From Fibrobacter succinogenes (GTDB lineage Bacteria; Fibrobacterota; Fibrobacteria; Fibrobacterales; Fibrobacteraceae), in the NCBI GenBank assembly GCA_902800345.1, contig CADCDO010000063.1, forward strand, positions 1 through 64,000: a stretch of DNA of 64,000 nucleotides, in the 5' to 3' direction. A program made the position numbers and the translations under genes. The notes under the pieces are model-generated. The model ran no database searches. It was not told where the DNA came from and worked only from the letters and a program-made list of their open reading frames with translations. Position 1 is the stretch's first letter. Each line of letters opens with the position of its first letter. This document shows positions 38,103-52,717 of this stretch, in pieces.

Positions 38103-39551
38103 GTGTTCTATGTGCCGGGCGATTTCGCTAAGATTGCAGATGCTCTCGGAAATGCGGATGCCGGGGATACCATCCTTGTCAAACGCGGTGTTTATAACGA
38201 AAACATCACCCTTATCATGGGTGTTGTCCTCAAGGGCGAGGATCCTTTGACAACCATCATTGATGGTGGTCGTAGAGGTCCGACCGTCATGGGTACATCG
38301 GGCGCCGAAATGTCGCACTTCACTGTGAGGAACGGTCTCGAAGGTATCCTTTGCGAAAACGCAGCTCCCTACATTCATCATTGTTATGTCATCGATAACC
38401 ACGCAACGGGTATCGGTGCTTTTATTTCTCTGCCCTGGCTTCGCAACAACGTGGTGTACGGCAACCGCTGGTCCGGTATTCTCGCCTGGGGTGCTAAGTC
38501 TCTCGATGCTTACGTCGAACAGAACGTCGTGCTCCGCAATGGCTACTCTGGCCTTGCATTGAAGGGCCCGACCAACATTATCGCACGTAACAACATCTTC
38601 ATGGAAAACCACTACTACGGTGTGTTTGCTGACCCGGCTGCCGGTCAGACGAAGGTGGAGTACAACAACATCTACAAGAACTACTACCCGTTCAACCAGT
38701 TCATCAAGGTGAACCGCACGAACGTGTCCCTGGACCCGAAGTTCATCAGCCCGTCTCTCGGCAACCCGAACTTCTTCTGCCAGTCCACCTCGCCGATGCT
38801 CAAGCGCGGTAAGGGCAAGCTGGATATCGGTCTTACGGCGACGGACGTAGTCAAGGAAGAAGAAGTTGTCGAGGAAACTCGCAATCCGGATACCGACGGT
38901 GACGCTCTCTGCGATCCGTGGGTCTCTGAAGAAGGCCTCTCTGAAAAGTACGCCGGTACTTGCACGGGCTTCGACAACTGCCCCGAAGAAGCCGAAGACT
39001 TTGACGGTTTCCAGGATGACGACGGTTGCCCGGATGCCGATAACGACCGCGACGGTCTCTGCGATCCGTGGGTCGAAGCGAAGGGTATGCTTTCTCAGTA
39101 CGCCCACATCTGTAAGGGCGTTGACCTCTGCCCCGAACAGTCTGAAACTTTGAACAGCTACAAGGACGATGATGGTTGCCCGGACGAAGTCCCGCAGCCG
39201 CCTAAGAAGGTCTTCGTGCTTGAAGGTGTGAACTTCGAATCCGGAAAGTCCACCATTACTCAGGACTCCTACGTCTCCTTGATGAAGGTGGTCGACATTA
39301 TGGAAACCTTCCCCGAAGCTACATTCGATATTATTGGCCATACCGACAACATCGGTAGCAAGGACAAGAACATGACTCTCTCCGCAGACCGTGCAAACGC
39401 TGTGAAGAACTTCCTTGTCGAAAAGGGCATTGCCGAAAGCCGTATGACAACCCAGGGCTTGGGCGATACAAAGCCTGTGGCTTCCAACAAAACACCTGAA
39501 GGGCGTGCGCAGAATCGTCGTATCGAATTCATCCGCACGGATATTAAGTAA
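38103..39551 (+). CDS. Beta-helix/TSP3/OmpA-domain envelope protein; N-terminus unresolved
   Basis: Residues 1-245 have right-handed beta-helix repeats (GVVLKGEDPLTTIIDGG, YIHHCYVIDNHATGIGAF). Two thrombospondin-3-like calcium repeats follow (DTDGDALCDPW, DDDGCPDADNDRDGLCDPW), then an OmpA peptidoglycan-binding domain (VNFESGKSTITQDSYVS, IIGHTDNIGSKDKNMTLSAD, NRRIEF). The open frame begins at GTG 38103, directly after a TAA, without signal peptide or ribosome site. Frame 38063-38131 (GTG) reads MFAKLASVCLTNLSVLCA, a plausible signal peptide shifted by one frame. A frameshift or sequencing error near 38095-38110 is possible. Confidence 0.8.
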   Translation: MFYVPGDFAKIADALGNADAGDTILVKRGVYNENITLIMGVVLKGEDPLTTIIDGGRRGPTVMGTSGAEMSHFTVRNGLEGILCENAAPYIHHCYVIDNHATGIGAFISLPWLRNNVVYGNRWSGILAWGAKSLDAYVEQNVVLRNGYSGLALKGPTNIIARNNIFMENHYYGVFADPAAGQTKVEYNNIYKNYYPFNQFIKVNRTNVSLDPKFISPSLGNPNFFCQSTSPMLKRGKGKLDIGLTATDVVKEEEVVEETRNPDTDGDALCDPWVSEEGLSEKYAGTCTGFDNCPEEAEDFDGFQDDDGCPDADNDRDGLCDPWVEAKGMLSQYAHICKGVDLCPEQSETLNSYKDDDGCPDEVPQPPKKVFVLEGVNFESGKSTITQDSYVSLMKVVDIMETFPEATFDIIGHTDNIGSKDKNMTLSADRANAVKNFLVEKGIAESRMTTQGLGDTKPVASNKTPEGRAQNRRIEFIRTDIK

Positions 39552-39562
39552 AGGAGTAGGTG

Positions 39563-41797
39563 ATGTTGCATACTAGTTTCATCAAGACGTCCGCAATTGG
39601 ACTTGCCGTAGCCAGCACTTCTTTGTTCGCTGAGGCAACCTACACGCCGAATAAGTATCAGCAGAATGACTGGTTTGCCGAATTTGGTGGTAACACCTCC
39701 ATGTATGTGAACCCCGCTGGTATTTCTGAAACTGATCAGCTTGAATTCAGCGCTGCATTCTTTAGTACCATTAGTGGCGAAGCTAGCCAGGAATATGTCA
39801 GCTTGACATATCCGATCGACTACAAGCACACTTGGGGCATTTCACTTTTTGAAAACGGTGCTTCCATCGAAGGTGGCGAATCCTATGGCGAAATTGCCGC
39901 TTTAATCGGCTATTCCTATAGACTCTTCCACTTGCTCTCTCTTGGTATCGACCTCTCTGTCTTGTACATCAACCAGTTTGATGAACTCAAGCAGCTCACG
40001 ATCGGTGCTGACGTGGGCTTGAGCTGGAACCCGCTCGCTTCTTCGAAGTACGGTTACTTGCTCATTGGCGTTGCCGTCCAGAACCTCCTTGCTCCGGCTG
40101 TCAGCGAAGCTGATGGCGACGGTAGCTTCAAGTTCGTGTTCATGACCGCAAAGGATGCCTATAAGATCCCGACGAACCTCAACCTCTCCATTTTCTGGCG
40201 TGGCTTCAACCGCCTCCTCGAATTGAAGGCTGAAATTTCCTTGATCGATATCATCCATGATTCCGATGAAGGTGGCACGGGCTCTAACCTCGAAATGAGC
40301 TTCACCTTGACCTATTACCTTTCTTCTCACCTCGGCGTTCGCGCCCGTTTCACGAAGGAAGGCTACCCGGTCATCGGCGCTACGGTTAACGTGAAGGACG
40401 TGAGCATCTTCCGTTACCTCGCTCTCGACCTCGAAATGTCTCATGACGACATTTGGGCCAAGAAGAACCGCGGCTTTGTTTGGGCTGTCAAGCTGACTTC
40501 TCGCTTCGGTGATACCCGTGAAGAGAAAATCGGCGAAGAACGCTATCGCCGCTTGAAGATCGAACCTGAAAACGATTACCGTGCAGCTATGCGTCTGTAC
40601 TTGAACCGTCAGTTCCTCGAAGCTGCTTATGCCTTCGGTAAGGTCCAGACGAAGTACCCGGCATTCCACTTGGTGGACCAGGCTGCATTCTACAAGGCTA
40701 AGTCTTTCGAAAACCTCCGCATGCACAAGGCCGCTAAGTCCGTGTATGAAGACGCTATCAAGCGCTATCCTCAGAGTGACCAGCGTCCGAAGTACCACTT
40801 CCAGTTGATGAACATCGACTATAAGGAAGGCAAGTATACGGAAGCCATGAACAAGTATCAGAACATCGCCCAGAAGTATGGCGAAAGCGACGTGAAGGCT
40901 GACGCTGACTACGTTGCCGGCCAGATCAAGTTCGAACAGGGCCTCTATCAGGAATGCGTGGACTTGCTCGCCGCAATCCTCCCGGGTAACGCGAACTACT
41001 TCTACGCCCGCTACACCATGGGTATCGCAAACAGCCGTATGGGCAAGTTTGACGAAGCCGAAAACTGCTTCCGTGACATTACGGAACAGCCGGTATCCAA
41101 CCAGTCCGAACGCGACTTGCAGGATGCTGCCAAGGTGAAGCTCGGCCACTTGTTCTTCTCTGGTGAAAAGCCTGACATCGCAGCTGCCGCTCAGATGTAC
41201 GGTCAGGTCCAGAAGGGCTCTCCGGTGTTCGACGAAGCTATGCTCGGTATTGCATGGTCCTTCCTCAAGGTGAACAAGCCGGATGAAGCCATGAAGCCTG
41301 CAAAGTGGATCATCAGCAATCTCCCGGAATCCTTCCTCGTTTCTGAAGCATACCTCGTGGTGGGTTACTGCTACTTCATGAAGAAGGACTACAAGAATGC
41401 TGTTGAAGCCTTGACCGAAGCAGACAAGCGTACGCAGCAGCCGATTGTGTCTGTTGCCGCTCGCGACAGTGCTCGCCAGGCATATGACGCCATGCAGAGC
41501 CAGTTCGACTCCGTCCAGGTTCTTGCCTTGGATCTTGCTCGCCAGTTGCCGACTCCGCGTGTGGAAAGCAAGCGTGAAGCTTTGCGCCCGACGTTCGATA
41601 AGGCCAACCAGGCTATCGAAGATTACGCTTCCTTCATGCAGAAGTCCATCCAGAGTGACCGCTTCGAATCCAACCGTAAGCGTATCTTGGATGACGCTGG
41701 CTTTACTTTGGCAACCGTCAAGACGAAGATGGGCCAGGGTCAGGGCGTTTCCGAAGAAGCAAAACAGCAACTCGACCAATTGGAGGACCTGGAGTAA
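39563..41797 (+). CDS. Outer membrane barrel plus TPR protein
   Basis: 744 residues: signal peptide (SAIGLAVASTSLFAEA), then ~300 residues of barrel strands (FAEFGGNTSMYVNPAGISET, YPIDYKHTWGISLFENGAS) similar to PorV/OMP families. A TPR region runs from about 325 to 700 (AAYAFGKVQTKYPAFHLVDQ, AAKSVYEDAIKRYPQSDQRP, FRDITEQPVSNQSERDL). Aaggag precedes GTG 39560 and ATG 39563. It follows the OmpA gene by 8 bp, and the next TPR protein lies 46 bp away. It likely anchors the complex at the outer membrane. Confidence 0.8.
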   Translation: MLHTSFIKTSAIGLAVASTSLFAEATYTPNKYQQNDWFAEFGGNTSMYVNPAGISETDQLEFSAAFFSTISGEASQEYVSLTYPIDYKHTWGISLFENGASIEGGESYGEIAALIGYSYRLFHLLSLGIDLSVLYINQFDELKQLTIGADVGLSWNPLASSKYGYLLIGVAVQNLLAPAVSEADGDGSFKFVFMTAKDAYKIPTNLNLSIFWRGFNRLLELKAEISLIDIIHDSDEGGTGSNLEMSFTLTYYLSSHLGVRARFTKEGYPVIGATVNVKDVSIFRYLALDLEMSHDDIWAKKNRGFVWAVKLTSRFGDTREEKIGEERYRRLKIEPENDYRAAMRLYLNRQFLEAAYAFGKVQTKYPAFHLVDQAAFYKAKSFENLRMHKAAKSVYEDAIKRYPQSDQRPKYHFQLMNIDYKEGKYTEAMNKYQNIAQKYGESDVKADADYVAGQIKFEQGLYQECVDLLAAILPGNANYFYARYTMGIANSRMGKFDEAENCFRDITEQPVSNQSERDLQDAAKVKLGHLFFSGEKPDIAAAAQMYGQVQKGSPVFDEAMLGIAWSFLKVNKPDEAMKPAKWIISNLPESFLVSEAYLVVGYCYFMKKDYKNAVEALTEADKRTQQPIVSVAARDSARQAYDAMQSQFDSVQVLALDLARQLPTPRVESKREALRPTFDKANQAIEDYASFMQKSIQSDRFESNRKRILDDAGFTLATVKTKMGQGQGVSEEAKQQLDQLEDLE

Positions 41798-41843: not shown

Positions 41844-44800
41844 ATGAAAAATCTCTTGCTCGTCTCGGCAATTGTTTGCTCCATGATAGGAACGACATTT
41901 GCTGCATCGGATCCGTGTAAAGATAAAACGGCCGAAGCAAAGAAACTGCTTGCTAAATGCAAGTCCATTGGAAAGGGCAATTCTGGTTATGAACAGTGCG
42001 CCGGTTCCTATAAAGTTATCAAGAACCAGGCCGAACAGGCTTGTCGTTCTGGCGGTCTGAACGAAGCTGAAATGCGCGATGCTATTGCGCAGTGGGAACG
42101 CCAGGTCGAACGTTGCAAGGGCAAGGTGAGTAACCGTTGCGCATCCGCTTTGCAGCAGCTCGGTCATTATCAGTTCCAGCTCGAAGAAAAACAGTTCCTC
42201 GACAAGAACGCCCAATATGAAGAAGATGTGGCATGGTGCGCCGACCGCGATAACAAGCCGGCAAAGTGCGCCAACATCAACGAATTCCCGAAGGCAGATC
42301 ATAAGAAGTCCTTGGGCTACTTCCTTGAATATATCGACAAGTATCCGAAGGAAGCCAAGGCTCCGACCGTGATTTATCAGGCTGCTGCCGTGCAGGAAGC
42401 CAGTGGTGAAGACGACAAGGCATACAAGCTCCGTATGCAGCTCGTCCGCGACTTCCCGGACAACGGTCTCGTGCCGAAGGCATGGCTCCGTATTGCTGAA
42501 TACCACTTCATGAACCGCAAGTTCAAGGACGCTATCGACGCCTATAAGAAGGTGACGGGCTTCGAGAACCTCACGGGTAAGGAAGCGGCACTTGCCATGT
42601 ACCACTTGGCAGAATCTTACTATAACACAGCAGAATACGAAATCGCCGCTAAGCAGTACTTCGATTACATCGTCGGTGCTGACAAGGGTAAATATCCTGC
42701 TGACTTGCGCGGTGAAGCTATGGACTTCATGGCAGCCTCCTTCTCTGACTTGGAAGGTGGTGGTGTCCAGGAAGCTGAAGCTTTCTTGAAGGACAAGAAG
42801 GTTGCGTTCAAGGACTCCGTCTACTACCGTATCGGTATGAAGAACAAGGACCATGACCGTAACGAAGAAGCTGTCCAGTCCTTCAAGCGCTTGATGAAGA
42901 TCAACCCGGACTATATCGATGCTCCGCTCGCCGATATCGCCATGATCGAAATCTTGATCGTCCAGCAGAAGTTTGAAGACGCTCAGGCTCACCGTTACGA
43001 AGTCGTGAAGCGTTACGACCGTAGCTCTTCTTGGTACAAGAAGAACCAGAAGTATCCGGAATCTGTGAAGAACGCCGAAGCCGCCATCCGTGGCGCTATG
43101 CTCGACATTCCGCAGTACCATCATGCTCAGGCTGCCAAGCTCACCAAGGAAGGTGATATCGAAGGTGGCAAGAAGCAGTATGGCAAGGCTATCGAAGCAT
43201 ACGAAGCATTCCTGAAGCGCTATGCCAAGGAACCGACCTGGGACGAATACAAGGTTCACATCAACCTCGCTCTCGTTTATCAGGAAATGGGCCAGCATGC
43301 TAACGCTGCCAAGATGTTCAACTGGATCGTCGAAACCGATACGACTCGCTATGGCCGTCGCGAAATGGGTTCTGGCAACCTCCTCTCCAAGGATGAAGCT
43401 GGTTACAACGCCGTTCTCATGATGGACCAGGCTCGCGAAAACGCAAGAAAGACGAAGGCTAACGATGATGCAGTCCAGGCTTACAACTTGCCCGAAACCA
43501 AGGCTTACTTCGACCAGGTCGATAAGTACATGGCCAAGTTCGGCAAGAACAAGGAAGCTGCAGAACTTGCTTACAACGCCGCTATCGTCCATTACGACGC
43601 AAAGCAGTTCAGCGTTGCCGTGAACGTTCTCCGCAAGCTTAAGAAGGACTTCCCGAACCATCAGTATATTTTGCTTATCAGCCGTATGTTGGCTCAGTCC
43701 CTCTTGGAATCCAACCAGCTCGACGAATCCCTCACGGAATTCGAATGGCTCCTCAAGCAGTACAAGTCCAAGGAAACTAGAAACGATTCCATGGCTCGCG
43801 AAATCGAAAAGGCTATCGCCTACGTCCTCTTCCAGAAGGCTGAATCTTCTGTCAAGGCTGGCAAGAGCGAAGCGGGTGCCAAGGCTTACATGGACCTCGT
43901 CAAGCGTTATCCGGATATCGACATTGCTGACAAGGCCGTGTTCGAAGCCGCTGCCGCTTATGAAAGCGTGAACCAGTTCAACAAGGCTGCTGAAACGTTC
44001 ATGATCCTTCCGAAGAAGTATGCCAAGTCCCCGCTCACTGTGAAGGGTATCTTGCGTGCTGCTAGCAACTACAAGAAGGACAAGAAACCGGTGGTTGCCG
44101 CCCAGACGTTCTTGTTCATTACGGACAACTTCCCGCAGGATTCCATGGCCTTCCCGGCAATTGGTTTTGCCGCCCAGACCTACGACTCCATTCCGGACAA
44201 GAAACAGGCTGCTATTACCTTTGAAATCGCCTACAAGCGTTACCCGAAGAACGAAGAAACTCCGTCATTCCTCTATAGCGCATGCTTGAGCTACGACGAA
44301 GCCAAGATGACGAACGAAGCTATCCGCTGCTCCAAGGACCTCGTCCGCGATTATCCGAAGAGCTCCTACGCTGTTGACGCTGCCTTCTCTATCCCGATGG
44401 CATACGCTAACGCCAAGAAGTGGGACCTCGCCATTCAGGAATATCGCAACTTCGTGAAGATGTATCCGGAAGACAAGGAAAAGCTGATTGCCGCCTATAT
44501 CGGCATGGCTCGTGCATACCGCGCTCTCAAGGACGAAGAAAACTCTGTTGATGCTTACGTGAAGACCCTCGAAGCCTACGACAAGTACGGCTTGCAGATC
44601 AAGAACGCCGATGCTGGAATCCCGGCTGAAGCTGCCTTCTACATGGGTGAACACGAATACAACAAGATGACTCCGGTTGTCTTGAAGGGCAAGGAAAAGG
44701 AAAAGGCGAAGATCGTCAAGCAGTTGGTCGAAATCCTTCAGAAGGCTATGGGTCACTACTCGAAGTCTGCTGCCTACGCATCTGAAAAGTGGACCTTCCG

Positions 44801-45722
44801 CGCCACGAACAAGATGGGTATGCTCTTCGTGACGATGGCTGCAAAGATTCGTGAACAGCAGCTCAACGGTAAGAAGGAAGAAGAAAAGTTTGCCGAACGT
44901 ATCGGTATCGTGCAACAGCTCCCGACTTACTACGAACAGGCTCGTCCGATCTTCCAGAAGAACATCGACCTCGCTCGTGACCAGGGCTTCTACAACAAGG
45001 ACGTTATCGCTGCAGAAATGGGCTACATCGAAATGTACTACCAGGGCTGCGCTGTGTTCGTCGAAGTTGCCGATGCATTCGCCAACTCCCCGATTCCGGA
45101 TAGTGCTTTGATCGTTCGTGAATACGTCGGTCAGGGCATGGTGAAGGATGACGCTATCATGGCTGCACACGAAGACTTGGAAGCCTACCGCGAAGAACTG
45201 AACAACCGTTCTGACGCTGCCAAGCAGCTCGCCATCCCGCAGTGCGCTACGGGTATCAAGGCTTCTGCTCACTATGGCATCGACAACGAATGGACGACGA
45301 AGCTCTTTGAAACCTTGAGGAAACTGGACGAAAACAACGAAGATCTCAATACCAAGATCGAAAAGTTCGACCCGTCTACGCTGTTTGCCGACCCGACGTA
45401 CTTCAAGTTGAAGGCTCGTATCGAACAGATCGAAAAGTCTGACGCTATGACTCTTGAAGAAAAGGTTACCACCTTCCGTAACATCGTCAAGGAAACTAAG
45501 GACGATCGTACCAAGCTTGAAGAAGAACTCGCCAAGCTCAAGGAATGGACTGCTAACCCGAGCCTGATCCCGGCTTCTGAAAGAGGTGTCGAATCCACTT
45601 CTGACTCTTCTAGCGACGAAGAAGCTGTCGAACAGTCCTCCAAGAAGGGTAAGAAGGCCAAAAAAGCCAAGACCGAAGCCAAAAAAGCCAAGAAAAAAGG
45701 CAAGAAAGGCAAGAAAAAATAG
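41844..45722 (+). CDS. Giant periplasmic TPR protein with Lys-rich tail
   Basis: 1292 residues with signal peptide (LLLVSAIVCSMIGTTFAA). Cys-rich for the first ~140 residues, then many tetratricopeptide-like helix pairs (FLEYIDKYPKEAKAPTVIYQ, AIEAYEAFLKRYAKEPTWDE, LTEFEWLLKQYKSKETR, AAETFMILPKKYAKSPLTVK). The C-terminus has a Ser-rich acidic patch followed by ~30 mostly Lys/Ala/Gly residues (positions 1262-1291). It is the largest gene in the window. Order with ExbB/ExbD genes resembles the TPR components next to Agl/Glt or Tol-type motors. The Lys tail may bind peptidoglycan, lipid or acidic partners. Confidence 0.82.
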   Translation: MKNLLLVSAIVCSMIGTTFAASDPCKDKTAEAKKLLAKCKSIGKGNSGYEQCAGSYKVIKNQAEQACRSGGLNEAEMRDAIAQWERQVERCKGKVSNRCASALQQLGHYQFQLEEKQFLDKNAQYEEDVAWCADRDNKPAKCANINEFPKADHKKSLGYFLEYIDKYPKEAKAPTVIYQAAAVQEASGEDDKAYKLRMQLVRDFPDNGLVPKAWLRIAEYHFMNRKFKDAIDAYKKVTGFENLTGKEAALAMYHLAESYYNTAEYEIAAKQYFDYIVGADKGKYPADLRGEAMDFMAASFSDLEGGGVQEAEAFLKDKKVAFKDSVYYRIGMKNKDHDRNEEAVQSFKRLMKINPDYIDAPLADIAMIEILIVQQKFEDAQAHRYEVVKRYDRSSSWYKKNQKYPESVKNAEAAIRGAMLDIPQYHHAQAAKLTKEGDIEGGKKQYGKAIEAYEAFLKRYAKEPTWDEYKVHINLALVYQEMGQHANAAKMFNWIVETDTTRYGRREMGSGNLLSKDEAGYNAVLMMDQARENARKTKANDDAVQAYNLPETKAYFDQVDKYMAKFGKNKEAAELAYNAAIVHYDAKQFSVAVNVLRKLKKDFPNHQYILLISRMLAQSLLESNQLDESLTEFEWLLKQYKSKETRNDSMAREIEKAIAYVLFQKAESSVKAGKSEAGAKAYMDLVKRYPDIDIADKAVFEAAAAYESVNQFNKAAETFMILPKKYAKSPLTVKGILRAASNYKKDKKPVVAAQTFLFITDNFPQDSMAFPAIGFAAQTYDSIPDKKQAAITFEIAYKRYPKNEETPSFLYSACLSYDEAKMTNEAIRCSKDLVRDYPKSSYAVDAAFSIPMAYANAKKWDLAIQEYRNFVKMYPEDKEKLIAAYIGMARAYRALKDEENSVDAYVKTLEAYDKYGLQIKNADAGIPAEAAFYMGEHEYNKMTPVVLKGKEKEKAKIVKQLVEILQKAMGHYSKSAAYASEKWTFRATNKMGMLFVTMAAKIREQQLNGKKEEEKFAERIGIVQQLPTYYEQARPIFQKNIDLARDQGFYNKDVIAAEMGYIEMYYQGCAVFVEVADAFANSPIPDSALIVREYVGQGMVKDDAIMAAHEDLEAYREELNNRSDAAKQLAIPQCATGIKASAHYGIDNEWTTKLFETLRKLDENNEDLNTKIEKFDPSTLFADPTYFKLKARIEQIEKSDAMTLEEKVTTFRNIVKETKDDRTKLEEELAKLKEWTANPSLIPASERGVESTSDSSSDEEAVEQSSKKGKKAKKAKTEAKKAKKKGKKGKKK

Positions 45723-45913: not shown

Positions 45914-46447
45914 ATGTCTAAAATGCTTCAATCCTTCAGCCCTGAATCTGATGGTTACCAGTTCATGTGGATCATCTTGGTCGTGTTCGTTATCGGCCTT
46001 GGCTTCTCCATCGAACGCTTCTTCTACATCATGGTGAAGAGCTCTTCTGGCCGCGCTAAGTTCATGGCTGATTTCGGTAAGCTCGTTATGCAAAACCAGT
46101 TGGAACAGGCTCTCCAGTTTGCCAAGAGCTCGAACCTCCCGATTGCCAAGGTTATGGACGCAATCGTTGGTGCTAAGCTCAACTGCAAGGATGCTGACAA
46201 GGCTCGCGACATGATGACTGCTGCTTCTGACGCTGTGTTCCTGACTGAAGCTCCGCGCCTCACTCGCTACATCTCCATCATTTCCGTTATGGCTTCCATC
46301 TCCACGTTGCTCGGACTTATGGGTACGATTTACGGTCTGATCGCAGTTCCTCTCCTCGTCATCGTCGGTCTTCTCAACATGAACTCCGAACGCCTCATCC
46401 AGGAAATGGAAGAAAAGGGTCTCAAGATTATCAACTCCCTTTCCTAA
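45914..46447 (+). CDS. ExbB/TolQ/MotA-family channel protein, internally short
   Basis: 177 residues from ATG 45914 behind aaaggag; an upstream open frame to 45791 lacks a ribosome site. TM1 is YQFMWIILVVFVIGLGFSIE; the long cytoplasmic loop leads to RYISIISVMASISTLLGLMG and TIYGLI. In ExbB/TolQ proteins ~40 residues with conserved Thr/Ser follow TM2 before TM3. Here TIYGLI joins straight to AVPLLVIVGLLNMNSERL, so the end of TM2 and start of TM3 appear fused. Normal lengths are 210-245. A deletion or a special channel is possible. It should be the proton-channel partner of the two ExbD-like proteins. Confidence 0.82.
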   Translation: MSKMLQSFSPESDGYQFMWIILVVFVIGLGFSIERFFYIMVKSSSGRAKFMADFGKLVMQNQLEQALQFAKSSNLPIAKVMDAIVGAKLNCKDADKARDMMTAASDAVFLTEAPRLTRYISIISVMASISTLLGLMGTIYGLIAVPLLVIVGLLNMNSERLIQEMEEKGLKIINSLS

Positions 46448-46487: not shown

Positions 46488-47378
46488 ATGGCACAACAAA
46501 TCAAGAAACCAAAAAAAGTCGAAGAACCGGATTTGCTTCCGGCGATGGGCTTGTTTACCATCTTGATTCCTATGCTTCTGACCATGACTGCATTCTCCAA
46601 GCTCGCTATTGTCGAAGTGAATCTGCCTGAACGTAGCCAGATGATCATGGACAATAATGAGCCGCCTCCACCTGATGAGCAGGCTTTGAACTTGTCACTC
46701 GCCATCGCTAGCGAATACCTCGTTATCGGTGCACGTGGTGGTTTCCAGCCGAACGTCTATTTCAAGGAAATGTGGACGTTCCGCTGCAAGTCCGATGCCC
46801 AGCTGGTTACCTATTCGATGGATGACGTCAAGGCTGCAGTCGAAAGTGGACATGGTCCGAAGTGCAAGAATGGCACAGAGATGGACAAAGAGAAGTATCT
46901 CTACGAAATCGAAAACATCGAACTCTGGGCTATTCAGAAAGAATCTGAAGAAGATCCGGGTCGTGTGATCTGGGCCGCTTACAAGAACGACGGTAGTGCT
47001 GAAGAAGCTCATGCTGACAGTGCTTACGTCGATGGCGCTAACAACTTCTTGTCCCTCCCGGGCGAAGGCGTATTGGGTCTCACCCCGCCACCGGCCCTCA
47101 AGGCTCCGACTCCGGGCATGGCTGTCGCAACGCTTCAGCCGAACTCTGCCCGTACTCTCAAGCCGGGTGACAAGAGCATGATTTATCCGCTTTCCGCATA
47201 CGATCTCATCGCTAAGGACTTGATCGCAATCCATACTCAGTTCATCGACATGGACGATGTTGACAACATCATCATCGTTGCAAACGACGACGCTCAGTTC
47301 GACAAGATCATCCAGCTCATGGACCGTGCCAAGGAAGCTGGTTTCAGCAAGATCAACCTTGCTAAGTTGGGAGGTTAA
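46488..47378 (+). CDS. ExbD-like protein with insertion and no membrane Asp
   Basis: 296 residues. A single N-terminal membrane helix (LLPAMGLFTILIPMLLTM) has Gly where ExbD/TolR have the proton-carrying Asp (P-F-I-D in E. coli ExbD). The periplasmic domain has ExbD ends (ALNLSLAIASEYLVIGARGG and IIIVANDDAQFDKIIQLMDR, then AKEAGFSKINLAKLGG) split by ~130 extra residues (about 95-225) with a Pro-rich part (LTPPPALKAPTPGMA). Typical ExbD is ~140-170 residues. It is followed 2 bp later by a normal-length ExbD. Confidence 0.8.
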   Translation: MAQQIKKPKKVEEPDLLPAMGLFTILIPMLLTMTAFSKLAIVEVNLPERSQMIMDNNEPPPPDEQALNLSLAIASEYLVIGARGGFQPNVYFKEMWTFRCKSDAQLVTYSMDDVKAAVESGHGPKCKNGTEMDKEKYLYEIENIELWAIQKESEEDPGRVIWAAYKNDGSAEEAHADSAYVDGANNFLSLPGEGVLGLTPPPALKAPTPGMAVATLQPNSARTLKPGDKSMIYPLSAYDLIAKDLIAIHTQFIDMDDVDNIIIVANDDAQFDKIIQLMDRAKEAGFSKINLAKLGG

Positions 47379-47380
47379 TC

Positions 47381-47875
47381 ATGGCTAGAAAAACTCGTAA
47401 ATATAGCGAAGACGTACCTTTCTCTTTGACGTCCATGATGGACATGATGACCATCATCTTGGTGTTCATGATCAAGAACATGGACGCTGAAGGTCAGCTC
47501 TTGACCCAGGCAGAAAACTTGATTCTTCCGATTTCGACTTCCAAAATACAGCCGAAGGAAGTGTCTCTGACTGTCGTGGTCGATGCTAACTACGTTATCG
47601 TTGACAATGAACAGGTGGTTCCGACCGCTGACGTTCTCGCTCAGGAAGATCTCCTTGTAACAAAGGTTGACGACGTCCTGAAGGACCGTCGCGCTATCGA
47701 ACAGGAACATGCCCTCAAGATGGGTCTTCCTGCCGACGAAGCGGGTCACATCATTGTCCAGATTGACAAGAACATCCCGTATGATGCGATGTACAAGGTG
47801 ATGGCCACGTGTGGTTTCTCCGGATACACGAACGTCGCATTCGCCGTGATGCAGAAGAACGGCGGGGAGGAATAA
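47381..47875 (+). CDS. ExbD/TolR-family protein
   Basis: 164 residues, one membrane helix. SMMDMMTIILVFMIK retains the conserved Asp. The periplasmic part has the ExbD/TolR fold (VSLTVVVDANYVIVDNEQVV, HIIVQIDKNIPYDAMYKVMA, GYTNVAFAVMQKNG). It pairs with ExbB to form the proton-driven stator. The gene starts 2 bp after its long paralogue, so the two may form a heteromer with only one Asp-bearing subunit. Confidence 0.9.
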   Translation: MARKTRKYSEDVPFSLTSMMDMMTIILVFMIKNMDAEGQLLTQAENLILPISTSKIQPKEVSLTVVVDANYVIVDNEQVVPTADVLAQEDLLVTKVDDVLKDRRAIEQEHALKMGLPADEAGHIIVQIDKNIPYDAMYKVMATCGFSGYTNVAFAVMQKNGGEE

Positions 47876-47878
47876 TCA

Positions 47879-48805
47879 ATGGCAAAGAAGAACATAGATC
47901 CGTTTATTGCGTCGCTTATGCCGGAATCCGACAAGAAGATGGGCGCAATTGCCGGTGTCTCTCTTGTGATTGCTTTGGCGATGTGTATATGGGCTTCCAT
48001 GTACGAACAGGTCGTTGCTGAAGTCGTGTTCGACAATGCGGACTCTGTTGACCTTACTACTTCCATGCAGATCGAGCAGAAGGAAGAAAAGAAGGAAGAA
48101 AAGAAGAAGCCTGAACCGAAGAAGCCTCGTAAGAAAGCTGGTGGCGGTGGTAAGCCGCGTGGTAAGGGTCAGCCGAACGCTCCGCAGACTCGCGGCGTGC
48201 TCAAGCTCCTCACCGCTCAGACCAAGAACGCCTCTGCTGCTGCTTATGACTTGATGAAGAACCAGAAGTTCACCAAGGACATCGACAAGGTGCTTAAGGA
48301 CGTCGCTGGCCTCCAGACTACGGGTAAGACCGTTCTCGGTGGTCGTCGCGGTAAGGCCGACGGTGGCTTCAACGAAGGTTACGCAGAAGGTGGTTCCGGT
48401 GGTATCGGTGACGGTCTCGCAGGCCTCCTTGGCGGTGGCGGCGGTGGTATCGCTACCAAGGCCAAGGGCTCCATCAAGACTCCGTCTATGCGCGATATCG
48501 ACATGGGTGCCGGTGGTGGATCCCGTTCCGCTGCAGACATCATGAAGGTTGTGCGTCAGCGTACTCCGGGTCTTCGCCACATCTATAACAAGTGCCTGAA
48601 GAAGAAACCGGGATTCCAGGGTAAGGTTACCTTGAGATTCACGATTGCTCCGGGTGGCGAAATCATTAGCATTTCCACTGTGTCTTCTACGACTGGTTAC
48701 AGCGAATTTGACAACGAAGTCAAGAATGCTGTCAGCCGCTGGACCTTCAGCAAGGTGAAGTCCGGTAACACGACGGTCACGATTCCGTTCACGTTCTCCG
48801 AATAA
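47879..48805 (+). CDS. AgmX/TonB-like energy-transducing protein
   Basis: 308 residues: cytoplasmic start, one membrane helix (MGAIAGVSLVIALAMCIWAS), a charged Lys/Glu/Pro spacer (EEKKEEKKKPEPKKPRKKAG), a Gly-rich region, and a C-terminal AgmX/PglI or TonB-like domain (IMKVVRQRTPGLRHIYNKCL, KVTLRFTIAPGGEIISIST, YSEFDNEVKNAVSRWTFSKV). Such proteins carry energy from ExbB/ExbD-type motors to outer membrane or periplasmic partners. It starts 3 bp after ExbD, and a strong terminator follows, closing the operon. Confidence 0.88.
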   Translation: MAKKNIDPFIASLMPESDKKMGAIAGVSLVIALAMCIWASMYEQVVAEVVFDNADSVDLTTSMQIEQKEEKKEEKKKPEPKKPRKKAGGGGKPRGKGQPNAPQTRGVLKLLTAQTKNASAAAYDLMKNQKFTKDIDKVLKDVAGLQTTGKTVLGGRRGKADGGFNEGYAEGGSGGIGDGLAGLLGGGGGGIATKAKGSIKTPSMRDIDMGAGGGSRSAADIMKVVRQRTPGLRHIYNKCLKKKPGFQGKVTLRFTIAPGGEIISISTVSSTTGYSEFDNEVKNAVSRWTFSKVKSGNTTVTIPFTFSE

Positions 48806-48961: not shown

Positions 48962-50266
48962 ATGAATTTAAAAACTGTAGCCGCCGTGGGCACCGCATTT
49001 GGGATCCTAGGTGTAGGGTCTGCTTTTGCAACATTTGCTCGTATCGAATCTATGGGTAAGAATACGACTTACATCATGGATGATGTGAGCATTTTTGATA
49101 ACCCGGCAAACATCAACCTTTACTCCAATTACCTGATTGGTGAATTCGGACCTTATACGCAGGACGTGGAAACAGGTACAAACCGCGACCCGCAGCACCC
49201 GAACTTCGGTGGCATTTTCTCCATTTCTCTTGGGGATGCCAACAATCCGGATCCGCGTATTTCTATCGGCGGTCTCTTCGGGCGCATCAATTCTGAACTT
49301 ATCCAGTACTTGCCGGATGTCGTGATCGGCGAAACTGGTGAAAGGACTGCAGTCCCTGAAACGGTGACGAACTTCGACGGTTTCTTGGGCGGTACGCTCT
49401 CGAACGGCAACGCTTGGGGCTTGCATGTCTATATCGCTCAGCAGGACGGTGGTGATGTTGGCGAAGACGGCAACTACCAGGTGAAGAAGGATGCCTACGC
49501 TTCTATCGTGCAGGCCGATGGTGGTTTCAACTTCCAGATTACCAATTACTTTGATTTGGAAGGTTCCTTGGCCTTGGCCCGTATCCAGTATGGTCCGGAA
49601 CACCACAACTTCTTTGATGACGGTAATTTCTCGTTCCTCATCAAGTCCCGTGCATTCTTTACTTTGGACGCTATCAACGGCGAACTCGTCCCGGCCTTGA
49701 ACCTCAAGTTCATCGATGCTCCGGGCCTGGATGAAAAGCATGCGCAGGTGGGCTTCGGTATAAACGTTGCCCTCGATCGTGGCTTCTTCTGGATGGGTGC
49801 AGACTTTATCTGGAATAAGAAAAAGGCTCACGACTGGATCTTTGATGTCGATACCAAGACATGGACTTACGATTCCCGTAACGAAGACAATAGACATTGG
49901 GACGAACGTACCGATATCGGCGGCATGATCAGCTTCGGTATCGAACGCAACATCTGGTGGGACTGGTTCGTCATCCGCGTCGGTGGCCAGAAGTCCATCC
50001 TTTATACGGACTGCGATGTCAATGCCAAGAATGCAGACAAGTACAACGACAAGCGTTATGGCATCTGCAAGGATGACGGCAACTTCTTCAGCACGAACCC
50101 GCTCGCTGACGGTACTTCCAAGGACCATATCGGCTTCGGTTTCGGCATCAATATCGAAGAAAAGCTGAAGATCGACGTGACTGTCGCCGAAGACTTGCTC
50201 TTCCGTAACCCGTTCCAGGGCGAAGGCCGCATCTTCTCCAGAATCTCTGCGACGTACTCGTTCTAA
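48962..50266 (+). CDS. Outer membrane protein (barrel)
   Basis: 434 residues, signal peptide (VAAVGTAFGILGVGSAFA), then strands rich in aromatic and glycine residues: YIMDDVSIFDNPANINLYSN, FGGIFSISLGDANNPDPRIS, WGLHVYIAQQDGGD, VGFGINVALDRGFFWMGADF, ending in RIFSRISATYSF with a terminal Phe, as in many outer membrane barrels. N-terminal DDVSIFDNPAN recalls PorV-like (gliding/secretion) proteins. A good ribosome site (aggag) precedes ATG 48962. It is a separate unit after the machine operon. Confidence 0.78.
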   Translation: MNLKTVAAVGTAFGILGVGSAFATFARIESMGKNTTYIMDDVSIFDNPANINLYSNYLIGEFGPYTQDVETGTNRDPQHPNFGGIFSISLGDANNPDPRISIGGLFGRINSELIQYLPDVVIGETGERTAVPETVTNFDGFLGGTLSNGNAWGLHVYIAQQDGGDVGEDGNYQVKKDAYASIVQADGGFNFQITNYFDLEGSLALARIQYGPEHHNFFDDGNFSFLIKSRAFFTLDAINGELVPALNLKFIDAPGLDEKHAQVGFGINVALDRGFFWMGADFIWNKKKAHDWIFDVDTKTWTYDSRNEDNRHWDERTDIGGMISFGIERNIWWDWFVIRVGGQKSILYTDCDVNAKNADKYNDKRYGICKDDGNFFSTNPLADGTSKDHIGFGFGINIEEKLKIDVTVAEDLLFRNPFQGEGRIFSRISATYSF

Positions 50267-50271
50267 AATAG

Positions 50272-50361
50272 AGTGGTTAGTAAACAGTGGTTAGTAAGCA
50301 GGAATGTAACAGGAACGTTCTTATTGCAATCCTAACCACTAATCACTAACCACTAATCACT
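50272..50361. repeat. Family B inverted array (hairpin)
   Basis: The left arm agtggttagtaaacagtgg... (50272-50303) and right arm cctaaccactaatcactaac... (50330-50361) are complementary for most of their length with a ~26-nt loop. It lies 6 bp after the stop of the barrel gene and could stop transcription or protect the mRNA end. Confidence 0.8.
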
Positions 50362-50419
50362 GGCAACAATTTTCGAAGCGCACTCCATCTGGGTGTGTTT
50401 CTTTTTTTATTTTATAGCC

Positions 50420-50782
50420 ATGAAAAAGATTTTGTTCCTCTTAATTCTCGCATTGCTTTCGTCTTGTTCCGAACCGACGGAGCGCATTGAAAAGAAACTT
50501 CTCCCGTATCTGCAAGAAGACTTGAAGTTCATGGTGGCGGAAGCCTTGAATGCTAATACGAAAAAAGAGGATTTGCTCGAAGAACCGTATTACAAGATTC
50601 GTGATTTTAGGTTGTTCGAAGGCGCCGAAGCCGAAATTTATGCGGCCTATGCCGAAGTCGATTTTTATCTCTACAGGAACATGGCTATTTACGCAAAACG
50701 CAAGTACCGTTACGAGGTTCATGGCAGGCACTGGGACCGTTATTATAAGGTCTTAAAATTTGGTAAAGATAAAACGCCTTGA
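50420..50782 (+). CDS. Predicted lipoprotein upstream of mreB
   Basis: 120 residues from ATG 50420: signal ILFLLILALLSSC with lipobox Cys at about 16. The frame is also open from 50393, which would add a hydrophobic run before MKK and is less likely. The mature part, EKKLLPYLQEDLKFMVAEAL and GAEAEIYAAYAEVDFYLYRN, has a cystatin/NTF2-like alternation with no assigned family. It precedes the shape operon by 64 bp. Confidence 0.7.
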   Translation: MKKILFLLILALLSSCSEPTERIEKKLLPYLQEDLKFMVAEALNANTKKEDLLEEPYYKIRDFRLFEGAEAEIYAAYAEVDFYLYRNMAIYAKRKYRYEVHGRHWDRYYKVLKFGKDKTP

Positions 50783-50813
50783 TTGTAAAATTGCGACCTT
50801 TTTTAATTATATT
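50783..50813 (+). promoter_or_regulatory. Candidate promoter for mreB
   Basis: ttgtaa, 19-bp spacer, tatatt, 33 bp before the TTG start. The spacing is two bases longer than in the rpsU and OmpA promoters. Confidence 0.4.
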
Positions 50814-50846
50814 TCAAGACGGGTTACATCTATAGAGGGCTAAATT

Positions 50847-51869
50847 TTGTTCGGACTTTTTTCTTGTGATATTGGTATCGATCTGGGTACTGCAAATACG
50901 CTTGTCCATGTGGCTGGACAGGGCATTCTCATTAATGAACCGACTGTGATTGCGGTGGACCGCAAGAGCAACCGTGTGACTGCTATTGGCTCCGAAGCTA
51001 AGAAAATGCTGGGCCGTACTTCGGGCGAAAGCCGTGCGATTCGCCCCATGCGCGATGGCGTGATTGCCGACTTCGAGCTTGTGGAAACTCTTTTGCAGAC
51101 GTTTATCAAGCGTGTGCAGCGCTACCCGCTGTGGGTGGTGAAACCGCGTGTGGTGGTTGGCGTTCCGAACGGGATTACCGAAGTGGAAACGCGCGCCGTG
51201 ATTGATGCCGCAAAGATGGCTGGCGCAAAGGAAGTCCACCTGGTGCATGAACCGATGGCTGCCGCTATCGGCATGGGCATCCCGGTCGAAGAACCTGTCG
51301 GCAACATGATTGTGGATATTGGCGGCGGTACGTCCGACATCGCCGTGATTGCCTTGAACAAATCTGACTGCAACGGCTCCGTGCGCGTGGGCGGCGACGA
51401 AATGGACGAGGCTATCGTGCGTTACCTGCGTACGATGTACAACCTCTGCGTGGGCGAAAGCACCGCTGAACAGATCAAGATCCAGATTGGCTCTGCAAGC
51501 CCGCTCGAAGAGGAATTGACGATGGAAGTCAAGGGTCTCGACTTTATTGCGGGTATGCCGCGTACGATTCCGATCGGAAGCGCCGAAATCCGCGAAGCCA
51601 TCAACGAGCCGGTCACGTCGATTATCGAAGCGGTGAAGCAGGCACTGAGCATTACGCTCCCGGAACTTTCCGCCGATATTTACGACAAGGGCATTATCCT
51701 CACGGGTGGCGGTTCCCAGCTGCGCGGTCTTGACGAACGTATCCGCAAGGAAACGGGTCTTTCCGTGAACGTGATTGACGATCCGATGACGTGTGTTTGC
51801 AAGGGTGCTGCCCGCATTCTTGAGGACTTGGACAAGTACCGTCCTGTCTTGATAGCCTCCTCTACGTAA
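50847..51869 (+). CDS. mreB: Actin-like shape protein
   Basis: MreB is the bacterial actin that guides lateral wall synthesis at the inner membrane. 340 residues: DIGIDLGTANTLVHVAGQGI (8-27), adenosine motifs VDIGGGTSDIAVIALN and GIILTGGGSQLRGLDERI. The start is TTG 50847, after gaggg; translated as MFGLFSCDIGIDLG it matches the family N-terminus (GLFS/DIGIDLGTANTL). The GTG/TTG start is unusual for such a highly expressed gene. mreC follows after 20 bp. Confidence 0.96.
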   Translation: MFGLFSCDIGIDLGTANTLVHVAGQGILINEPTVIAVDRKSNRVTAIGSEAKKMLGRTSGESRAIRPMRDGVIADFELVETLLQTFIKRVQRYPLWVVKPRVVVGVPNGITEVETRAVIDAAKMAGAKEVHLVHEPMAAAIGMGIPVEEPVGNMIVDIGGGTSDIAVIALNKSDCNGSVRVGGDEMDEAIVRYLRTMYNLCVGESTAEQIKIQIGSASPLEEELTMEVKGLDFIAGMPRTIPIGSAEIREAINEPVTSIIEAVKQALSITLPELSADIYDKGIILTGGGSQLRGLDERIRKETGLSVNVIDDPMTCVCKGAARILEDLDKYRPVLIASST

Positions 51870-51889
51870 TTTTTAAAATTTGCACTTCG

Positions 51890-52717
51890 ATGCTTAGAGC
51901 TTTTCGCTTTATTGTCGATTTGTTTACCCAAAGGCATGGCGTTGTCGCTTTTGCCTTTTTTCTCGTTTTGGGAATCCTGTTGCGCGAGGCTTCGACTCAG
52001 GTCCGTGAAAGCGTTGTCGAAAGCGCTCTTTCGACTGTTTTTTACCCGGTGCAGCTGCTGGCCTCGTCCATCAACGACTTCAAGAACTTGCAGGCGGAAA
52101 ATGACCACCTGAAAGCGGAAAACGCGAGGCTTAGGCAGGAAACTTACCACGCAAGCGAAGGCTTGCAGGAACTCGCGAGGCTCCACACGCTTGTGCGCTT
52201 TGACGACAAGTGGGACTATCCGATTGTGACATCCCGCGTGGTGGGGCATAACCCCGGCCGTTTTCTTACGACGCTTGTCATCAACCGCGGGACGTATCAC
52301 GGCGTCAAGGACAACATGCCGGTGATGTCGATGAACGGGCTTGTCGGGAAGATTTCGAAGGCGATGATGACGCATTCCAGGGTGCAGCTTCTAGTCGATC
52401 CGAACCTCAAGCTCTCCGTGCTCGAACGCCGTACGCGCGTGGTGGGCTTTCTGGAATCGATGGACGGTCATCTGCTTTCGGCGATGATTCCCTCCCATGC
52501 GGGCGTTGCCGAGGGCGATACGCTCATTACCTCTGGACTGGGCGGCATTTTTCCCAAGGGTATTCCTGTGGGTACGGTCCGTTCGGTTCGCAAGGCGGAC
52601 CTGGACGTGATGAGTCTCATGGACGTGGAACCCTTCCAGGAATTTTCCACGCTTGAAGAAGTCTTCGTGATGCAAAAGGAACCGGATTGGATTATCCAGG
52701 AGTTGCTCGATGAGTAA
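51890..52717 (+). CDS. mreC: Rod shape-determining protein MreC
   Basis: 275 residues: N-terminal membrane helix (GVVAFAFFLVLGILL), a coiled coil (LQAENDHLKAENARLRQET), and the MreC beta-barrel core (VTSRVVGHNPGRFLTTLVIN, VSMNGLVGKISKAMMTHSR, GDTLITSGLGGIFPKGIPVG). MreC lies in the periplasm and links MreB, PBP2 and MreD. The stop overlaps mreD start by 8 bp. Confidence 0.95.
   Translation: MLRAFRFIVDLFTQRHGVVAFAFFLVLGILLREASTQVRESVVESALSTVFYPVQLLASSINDFKNLQAENDHLKAENARLRQETYHASEGLQELARLHTLVRFDDKWDYPIVTSRVVGHNPGRFLTTLVINRGTYHGVKDNMPVMSMNGLVGKISKAMMTHSRVQLLVDPNLKLSVLERRTRVVGFLESMDGHLLSAMIPSHAGVAEGDTLITSGLGGIFPKGIPVGTVRSVRKADLDVMSLMDVEPFQEFSTLEEVFVMQKEPDWIIQELLDE

Follow-up and report, generated by a model that had tools for sequence, protein, structure and literature searches.

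The window, a stretch of 64,000 nucleotides from a Fibrobacter succinogenes assembly (GCA_902800345.1, contig CADCDO010000063.1; 103 contigs totaling 4.27 Mb, completeness 94%), carries on its forward strand a conserved block of genes encoding, in order, a giant TPR protein, an ExbB, two unlike ExbD proteins (hereafter ExbD1 and ExbD2), and a TonB-like protein (Table 1). A TPR protein also lies directly 5' of exbB in most KSB1 and Calditrichota loci with enough flanking sequence. Four other ExbDs are encoded in the genome, each of them single and each with the membrane aspartate (motifs PLMDIV, PMLDMV, PLIDCV, and NMIDIV), which makes the pair in the window the only ExbD pair of this genome. 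On the 3' side of the motor operon, Fibrobacteraceae carry genes for an outer-membrane protein and a small lipoprotein, and then mreB-mreC (positions 48962-52717 of the window); the Agl motors of Myxococcus are linked to MreB, and the adjacency of mreBC is a possible lead. Upstream, at 38103-41797, lie genes for a parallel-beta-helix/OmpA-like protein and for a protein of 745 aa in which an outer-membrane-barrel-like N-terminus precedes TPR-like repeats, as judged by eye; these proteins may form the outer-membrane end of this machine (compare the OmpA family protein FSU_2396; PMC4619616).

Table 1. Features of the exbB-exbD1-exbD2-tonB locus in the window, and related proteins from other contigs
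Feature	Location	Strand	Basis or remark
TPR protein, 1292 aa, secreted	41844..45722	+	First gene of block; Pfam/NCBIfam TPR and YbgF-like repeats
ExbB/TolQ, 177 aa	45914..46447	+	PF01618, 36.0 bits, above cut-off
Junction of private in-frame 105-bp exbB deletion, between GGTCTGATC and GCAGTT	46342..46343	+	Flanks 100% identical to relative L039
ExbD1, 296 aa, long ExbD, one TM helix, without membrane Asp	46488..47378	+	ORF and PF02472
Gly21 codon of ExbD1, at the proton-binding Asp position	46548..46550	+	Sequence; N/G/S/A/C in alignment of relatives
Extra periplasmic region of ExbD1 (approximate, residues ~60-235)	46665..47192	+	AF2; strand-rich, high-confidence
ExbD2, 164 aa, with membrane Asp	47381..47875	+	ORF and PF02472
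Asp21 codon of ExbD2	47441..47443	+	Invariant, 148/148 distinct ExbD2s
Lys32 codon of ExbD2, 11 residues past Asp, within helix	47474..47476	+	K/R in 142/148
TonB-like protein, AgmX/PglI C-terminal domain, force arm	47879..48805	+	NF033768, 80.5 bits (cut-off 40); PF03544, 38.4 bits
Outer-membrane beta-barrel-like protein	48962..50266	+	NF053618, weak, below cut-off; conserved next gene in Fibrobacteraceae
ExbB-ExbD1 fusion, examples from Fibrobacterota	L113:8778-10094; L110:2047-3330; L171-L189		
Secreted, helix-less ExbD1 domain with TonB arm	L240:2470-3696		Window's own genome, contig C8
Secreted, helix-less ExbD1 domain with TonB arm	L241 (464 aa)	-	42% to ExbD1, 63% to TonB
Secreted, helix-less ExbD1 domain with TonB arm and Fib_succ_major domain	L242:1411-3384		
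Lipoprotein-like stand-alone ExbD1 periplasmic domain	L243:2631-3404; L244 (252 aa)	L244: -	33-41% identical

Both ExbDs scored above the cut-off of the Pfam ExbD family (PF02472), ExbD1 with 35.8 bits mainly over residues 251-292 and ExbD2 with 52.0 bits over residues 13-156. ExbD2 has the single transmembrane helix (SLTSMMDMMTIILVFMIK), the membrane Asp (Asp21), and the periplasmic domain expected of an ExbD. ExbD1 lacks the Asp: as a preliminary description of this DNA had noted, its helix (PDLLPAMGLFTILIPMLL) has a glycine, Gly21, at the proton-binding Asp site of ExbD, TolR, and MotB, and the second ExbD keeps the Asp. Pro-x-Met-Gly of ExbD1 aligns with the canonical Pro-x-x-Asp (as seen in PLMDIV, PMLDMV, and PLIDCV above), a register that rests on the Pro-x-Met-(N/G) motif; hhalign paired ExbD1 with ExbD2 at 93.7% through the retained C-terminal ExbD domain and did not register the transmembrane helices.

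An Asp elsewhere in the ExbD1 helix was looked for, and no other acidic residue was found in the helix core of Fibrobacter ExbD1. Asp15 lies six residues before the Asp site, ahead of the helix-starting Pro and outside the predicted helix (residues 17-33). An Asp at this -6 position occurs in 116 of 157 distinct ExbD1s and in most Fibrobacterota; it lies at the membrane edge, but may have a role in protonation. Each paralog has its own signature, namely Pro at -3 (151/157) and at +7 (153/157) in ExbD1, and Ser at -3 with Lys or Arg at +11, within the helix (142/148), in ExbD2. A Glu at +14 of ExbD1 is present in some clades and absent in Fibrobacter. Acidic residues at +14 were mutually exclusive between the paralogs (72 in ExbD2 only, 62 in ExbD1 only, none in both, 49 in neither); this exclusivity could hint at a contact, but it tracks the phylogeny and does not count as independent evidence.

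ExbD1 exceeds ExbD2 in length by 132 residues, in agreement with the insertion of ~130 residues described earlier. AF2 gave a confident model of its periplasmic part (mean pLDDT 84), in which the extra residues form a well-predicted, strand-rich region (~65-235). In fold searches the C-terminal domain of ExbD1 resembled TolR (5by4) and ExbD (8vgc and 8p9r), its sole believable PDB relatives, and the search of the PDB with the insertion returned no convincing match, the top hits being MreB/actin-like with TM-scores of about 0.2, which are not credible. Most stand-alone ExbD1s of Fibrobacterota are about 261-311 aa long, versus 177-187 aa in Calditrichota and KSB1, where the insertion is absent and the Asp is still missing. 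Because of this difference in length, the insertion is, on sequence comparison, an elaboration of one lineage, and the missing Asp is the constant; the earlier picture of a long, Asp-less subunit thus stands for the Asp and falls for length as its defining trait.

We examined how far this asymmetry extends in three sets of sequence: loci fetched by ExbB similarity, regions from all major Fibrobacterota groups, and two further phyla reached from those loci. Among 157 distinct ExbD1s the Asp site was Asn in 90, Gly in 52, Ser in 9, Ala in 3, and Cys in 3, and never Asp or Glu, while all 148 distinct ExbD2s had Asp (counts for Fibrobacterota, Calditrichota, and a KSB1-like phylum, with the paralogs assigned by profile). 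The asymmetry spans 14 Fibrobacterota families and the two further phyla, and loci fetched by ExbB similarity alone, which are hence unbiased for ExbD1, show it equally. The order exbB-exbD1-exbD2-tonB was fixed across the loci surveyed; in the two other phyla all four genes were present in order at 48 of 50 loci, and the remaining two were partial. Neither paralog was seen alone in the surveyed loci except at contig ends: in one tally the loci without ExbD2 were either contig ends or L132, in which the search pattern missed the motif and the Asp was recognized by eye. The suggestion that the motor needs two unlike stator subunits is thus borne out to the extent that the two co-occur, and conservation of only one of them was looked for and not found.

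In a maximum-likelihood tree, ExbD1 formed one clade (support 98/94) and ExbD2 another (100/97), both apart from canonical ExbDs, and the two clades branched broadly in parallel. From this topology we infer that the split between ExbD1 and ExbD2 predates the divergence of these phyla, or that the pair traveled together. Judged by sequence, the asymmetry is real, old, and strict, and the pair is neither private nor decaying.

The ExbB of the window is a different matter. Assignment to the ExbB/MotA-type channel subunits with three transmembrane helices follows from the PF01618 match and from full-length relatives; the window copy lacks part of TM2-TM3. The ExbBs of complete relatives have 203-212 aa or more versus 177 aa in the window. 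No complete relative lacks the 35 residues that are missing from the window copy, which span the periplasmic TM2-TM3 loop and TM3 up to its middle, and the hydropathy profile of this copy has two hydrophobic blocks, not three. The gap is a deletion of exactly 105 bp, and its junction occurs in one of 80 genomes of the genus, the window's own, the other 79 being without it. No second, intact copy was found elsewhere in the window's genome. Having lost this stretch of TM2-TM3, the copy probably does not work as a channel. In a relative, the 9.7-kb contig L044 stops two bases past the same deletion point. The deletion may be a private mutation, and this contig break makes an assembly error or a mixed population possible as well. 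The short ExbB had been proposed as part of an unusual energized complex, a proposal that fails because the 35 residues are present in all complete relatives, the junction is unique to this assembly, and no intact copy exists elsewhere; we therefore rule out the short form as a design element.

Natural fusions bear on where ExbD1 resides. About 20 Fibrobacterota genomes from eight families encode a protein of about 430 aa in which ExbB is fused to ExbD1, and the ExbD1 part is always Asp-less (Asn or Gly). The fusion belongs to a second operon that consists of a free ExbB (where the contig reaches), the fusion, an ExbD2 with Asp, and TonB. It joins the cytoplasmic C-terminus of ExbB to the cytoplasmic N-terminus of ExbD1 and is topologically sound; an AF2 model of it was of moderate quality (pLDDT 73, pTM 0.48) and says nothing about assembly. 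These fusions argue for a place of ExbD1 inside the ExbB complex, and with the separate ExbB encoded beside them, a ring could contain a single fused subunit.

Fibrobacter genomes, including that of the window, also encode secreted proteins and lipoproteins that have the ExbD1 periplasmic domain and no helix. Because several of them join this domain to the TonB arm of the window's operon, ExbD1 can be placed beside TonB; the domain fusions suggest joint action of the TonB arm with the periplasmic part of ExbD1, and that ExbD1, which the preliminary description had cast as structural, may also couple to TonB. The secreted ExbD1-TonB fusions might serve as free decoys or as partners of the motor at the surface.

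Published data show that the operon is expressed. In the type strain S85, the operon FSU_2400-2403 (ExbB, ExbD, ExbD, TonB) encodes proteins of 23.06, 32.44, 18.24, and 32.45 kDa (PMC4619616). The masses that we computed, 23.14 (using a relative's full-length ExbB), 32.5, 18.23, and 32.51 kDa, match these four proteins, as do the pI values, and the mass of FSU_2400 is that of the full-length ExbB. FSU_2401, FSU_2402, and FSU_2403 are listed as detected on cellulose only (PMC4619616), and the four-gene operon is reported as up on cellulose, with a hypothesized role of FSU_2400-2403 in cellodextrin uptake (PMC6851124). The type strain produces all four proteins, mostly on cellulose.

The locus shares with ExbB5-ExbD2, TolQ5-TolR2, and MotA5-MotB2 its ExbB and ExbD families, the TonB-type arm, and the Asp in ExbD2. 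In those complexes the two axle helices are identical and both carry an Asp, whereas here the two are unlike and one is Asp-less. The AglRQS motor of Myxococcus gliding and sporulation is similar in that one TolQ/ExbB-like and two TolR/ExbD-like proteins are encoded together, and the Agl-Glt core complex has a TonB-like arm (GltG) and TPR partners, the TonB-like protein of the window having an AgmX/PglI C-terminal domain. A Fibrobacter homolog of the Agl-Glt core complex has been reported (PMC3169522). The conserved Asp is, however, predicted in AglQ and AglS alike (PMC9389320), and the motor stops when AglQ has the D28N substitution (PMC3858216), in contrast to the Asp-less state of ExbD1 in 157 of 157 sequences, a comparison made with the published description of AglRQS. 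Because both of its TolR-like subunits are predicted to have the Asp, we do not claim membership of AglRQS for the window motor; its TonB-like protein did not match the GltG equivalog either (NF033760, 56 bits against a cut-off of 650), and passed only for the C-terminal domain that the two share (NF033768).

Tandem exbD operons likewise hold one exbB, two adjacent exbDs, and tonB in one cluster, as in tonB-exbB-exbD1-exbD2 of Xanthomonas and exbB2-exbD21-exbD22-tonB2 of Riemerella in the Bacteroidota (PMC3551730, PMC4446302). By contrast, the available text of these descriptions of Xanthomonas and Bacteroidota reports no Asp loss, ExbB-ExbD fusion, or universal co-inheritance. Neither an Asp-less ExbD partner nor a natural fusion of ExbB to ExbD turned up in the literature searched, a search that is thin in subscription papers.

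We propose, with a probability of roughly 0.6, that the operon encodes a proton-driven motor of the ExbB/ExbD/TonB type whose axle is an obligate ExbD1:ExbD2 heterodimer. Five ExbBs would enclose one ExbD1 helix and one ExbD2 helix, ExbD2 would carry the sole protonatable Asp, and the Asn, Gly, or Ser of ExbD1 would act as a permanently neutral partner resembling the protonated state. Asn is the commonest replacement in ExbD1 (90/157), and the D-to-N change in MotB has been described as mimicking protonation (PMC9389320). Under the rotary scheme, the proton use of such a motor per turn would be about half that of a symmetric 5:2 motor, and each ExbB would give one power stroke and not two. Coupling of the axle to the TonB-like arm and to the adjacent TPR and outer-membrane proteins would fall to the ExbD1 periplasmic domain, which is enlarged in Fibrobacterota. 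Against the proposal, the presence of one gene for each paralog need not mean that the two stand 1:1 in the pore. In its most specific form the proposal becomes a naturally half-geared 5:1:1 proton motor with a single working Asp, a reading that we consider rather unlikely; such a motor would perhaps lack free continuous rotation, because ExbB, the wheel, and ExbD1, the axle helix, are one polypeptide in about 20 genomes.

We weighed an alternative in which two homodimeric motors share ExbB, with ExbB5(ExbD2)2 working and ExbB5(ExbD1)2 an inactive competitor that regulates output. The presence of exbD1 and exbD2 in one operon is compatible with it, and tandem exbDs with separable functions are known: Xanthomonas does not require exbD2 for iron uptake, but does require it for pectate lyase induction (PMC3551730). 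A silencing subunit would, however, be expected to be lost occasionally, yet ExbD1 is present at every locus with enough sequence, and a fusion of ExbB to ExbD1 encoded with a separate ExbB better fits one ExbD1 per complex; we consider this alternative unlikely. It is less likely again that ExbD1 sits outside the pore as an ExbD-derived, single-pass periplasmic adaptor between the motor, TonB, and peptidoglycan or outer-membrane partners, with a helix that lost its Asp and serves only as an anchor. Such an adaptor would suit the near-invariant Pro at +7 of the ExbD1 helix, the strand-rich extra periplasmic sequence, and the helix-less lipoproteins and secreted proteins with the same domain. 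A mere anchor should drift, yet conservation of the helix is high and its Asp site admits a restricted set of small or polar residues, and the direct ExbB-ExbD1 fusion again speaks for a position within the ExbB complex.

The truncated ExbB and the contig break of L044 at the same point could also be taken to mean that the Asp was lost through decay in a dying or misassembled locus. We regard this as highly improbable: ExbD1 is Asp-less without exception across three phyla, the other frames of the locus are unbroken and share 92-94% identity with near relatives, and the proteins are detected in S85 (PMC4619616). Decay of ExbD1 is refuted by that universality, and decay explains the exbB deletion only.

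The locus points to an energized envelope machine linked to growth on cellulose in Fibrobacter. It bears on whether Ton/Tol-type motors rotate, on whether such motors require both of their axle aspartates, and on whether pairs of the AglQ/AglS type are heterodimeric, which PMC9389320 describes as not known. Here, in fiber-degrading gut bacteria and distant relatives of theirs, one Asp has been lost for good and the subunit kept, over three phyla and also fused to the wheel, which offers a natural system for direct tests of stoichiometry, proton count, and rotation, and this lasting one-Asp asymmetry could test how such motors convert proton flow to force.
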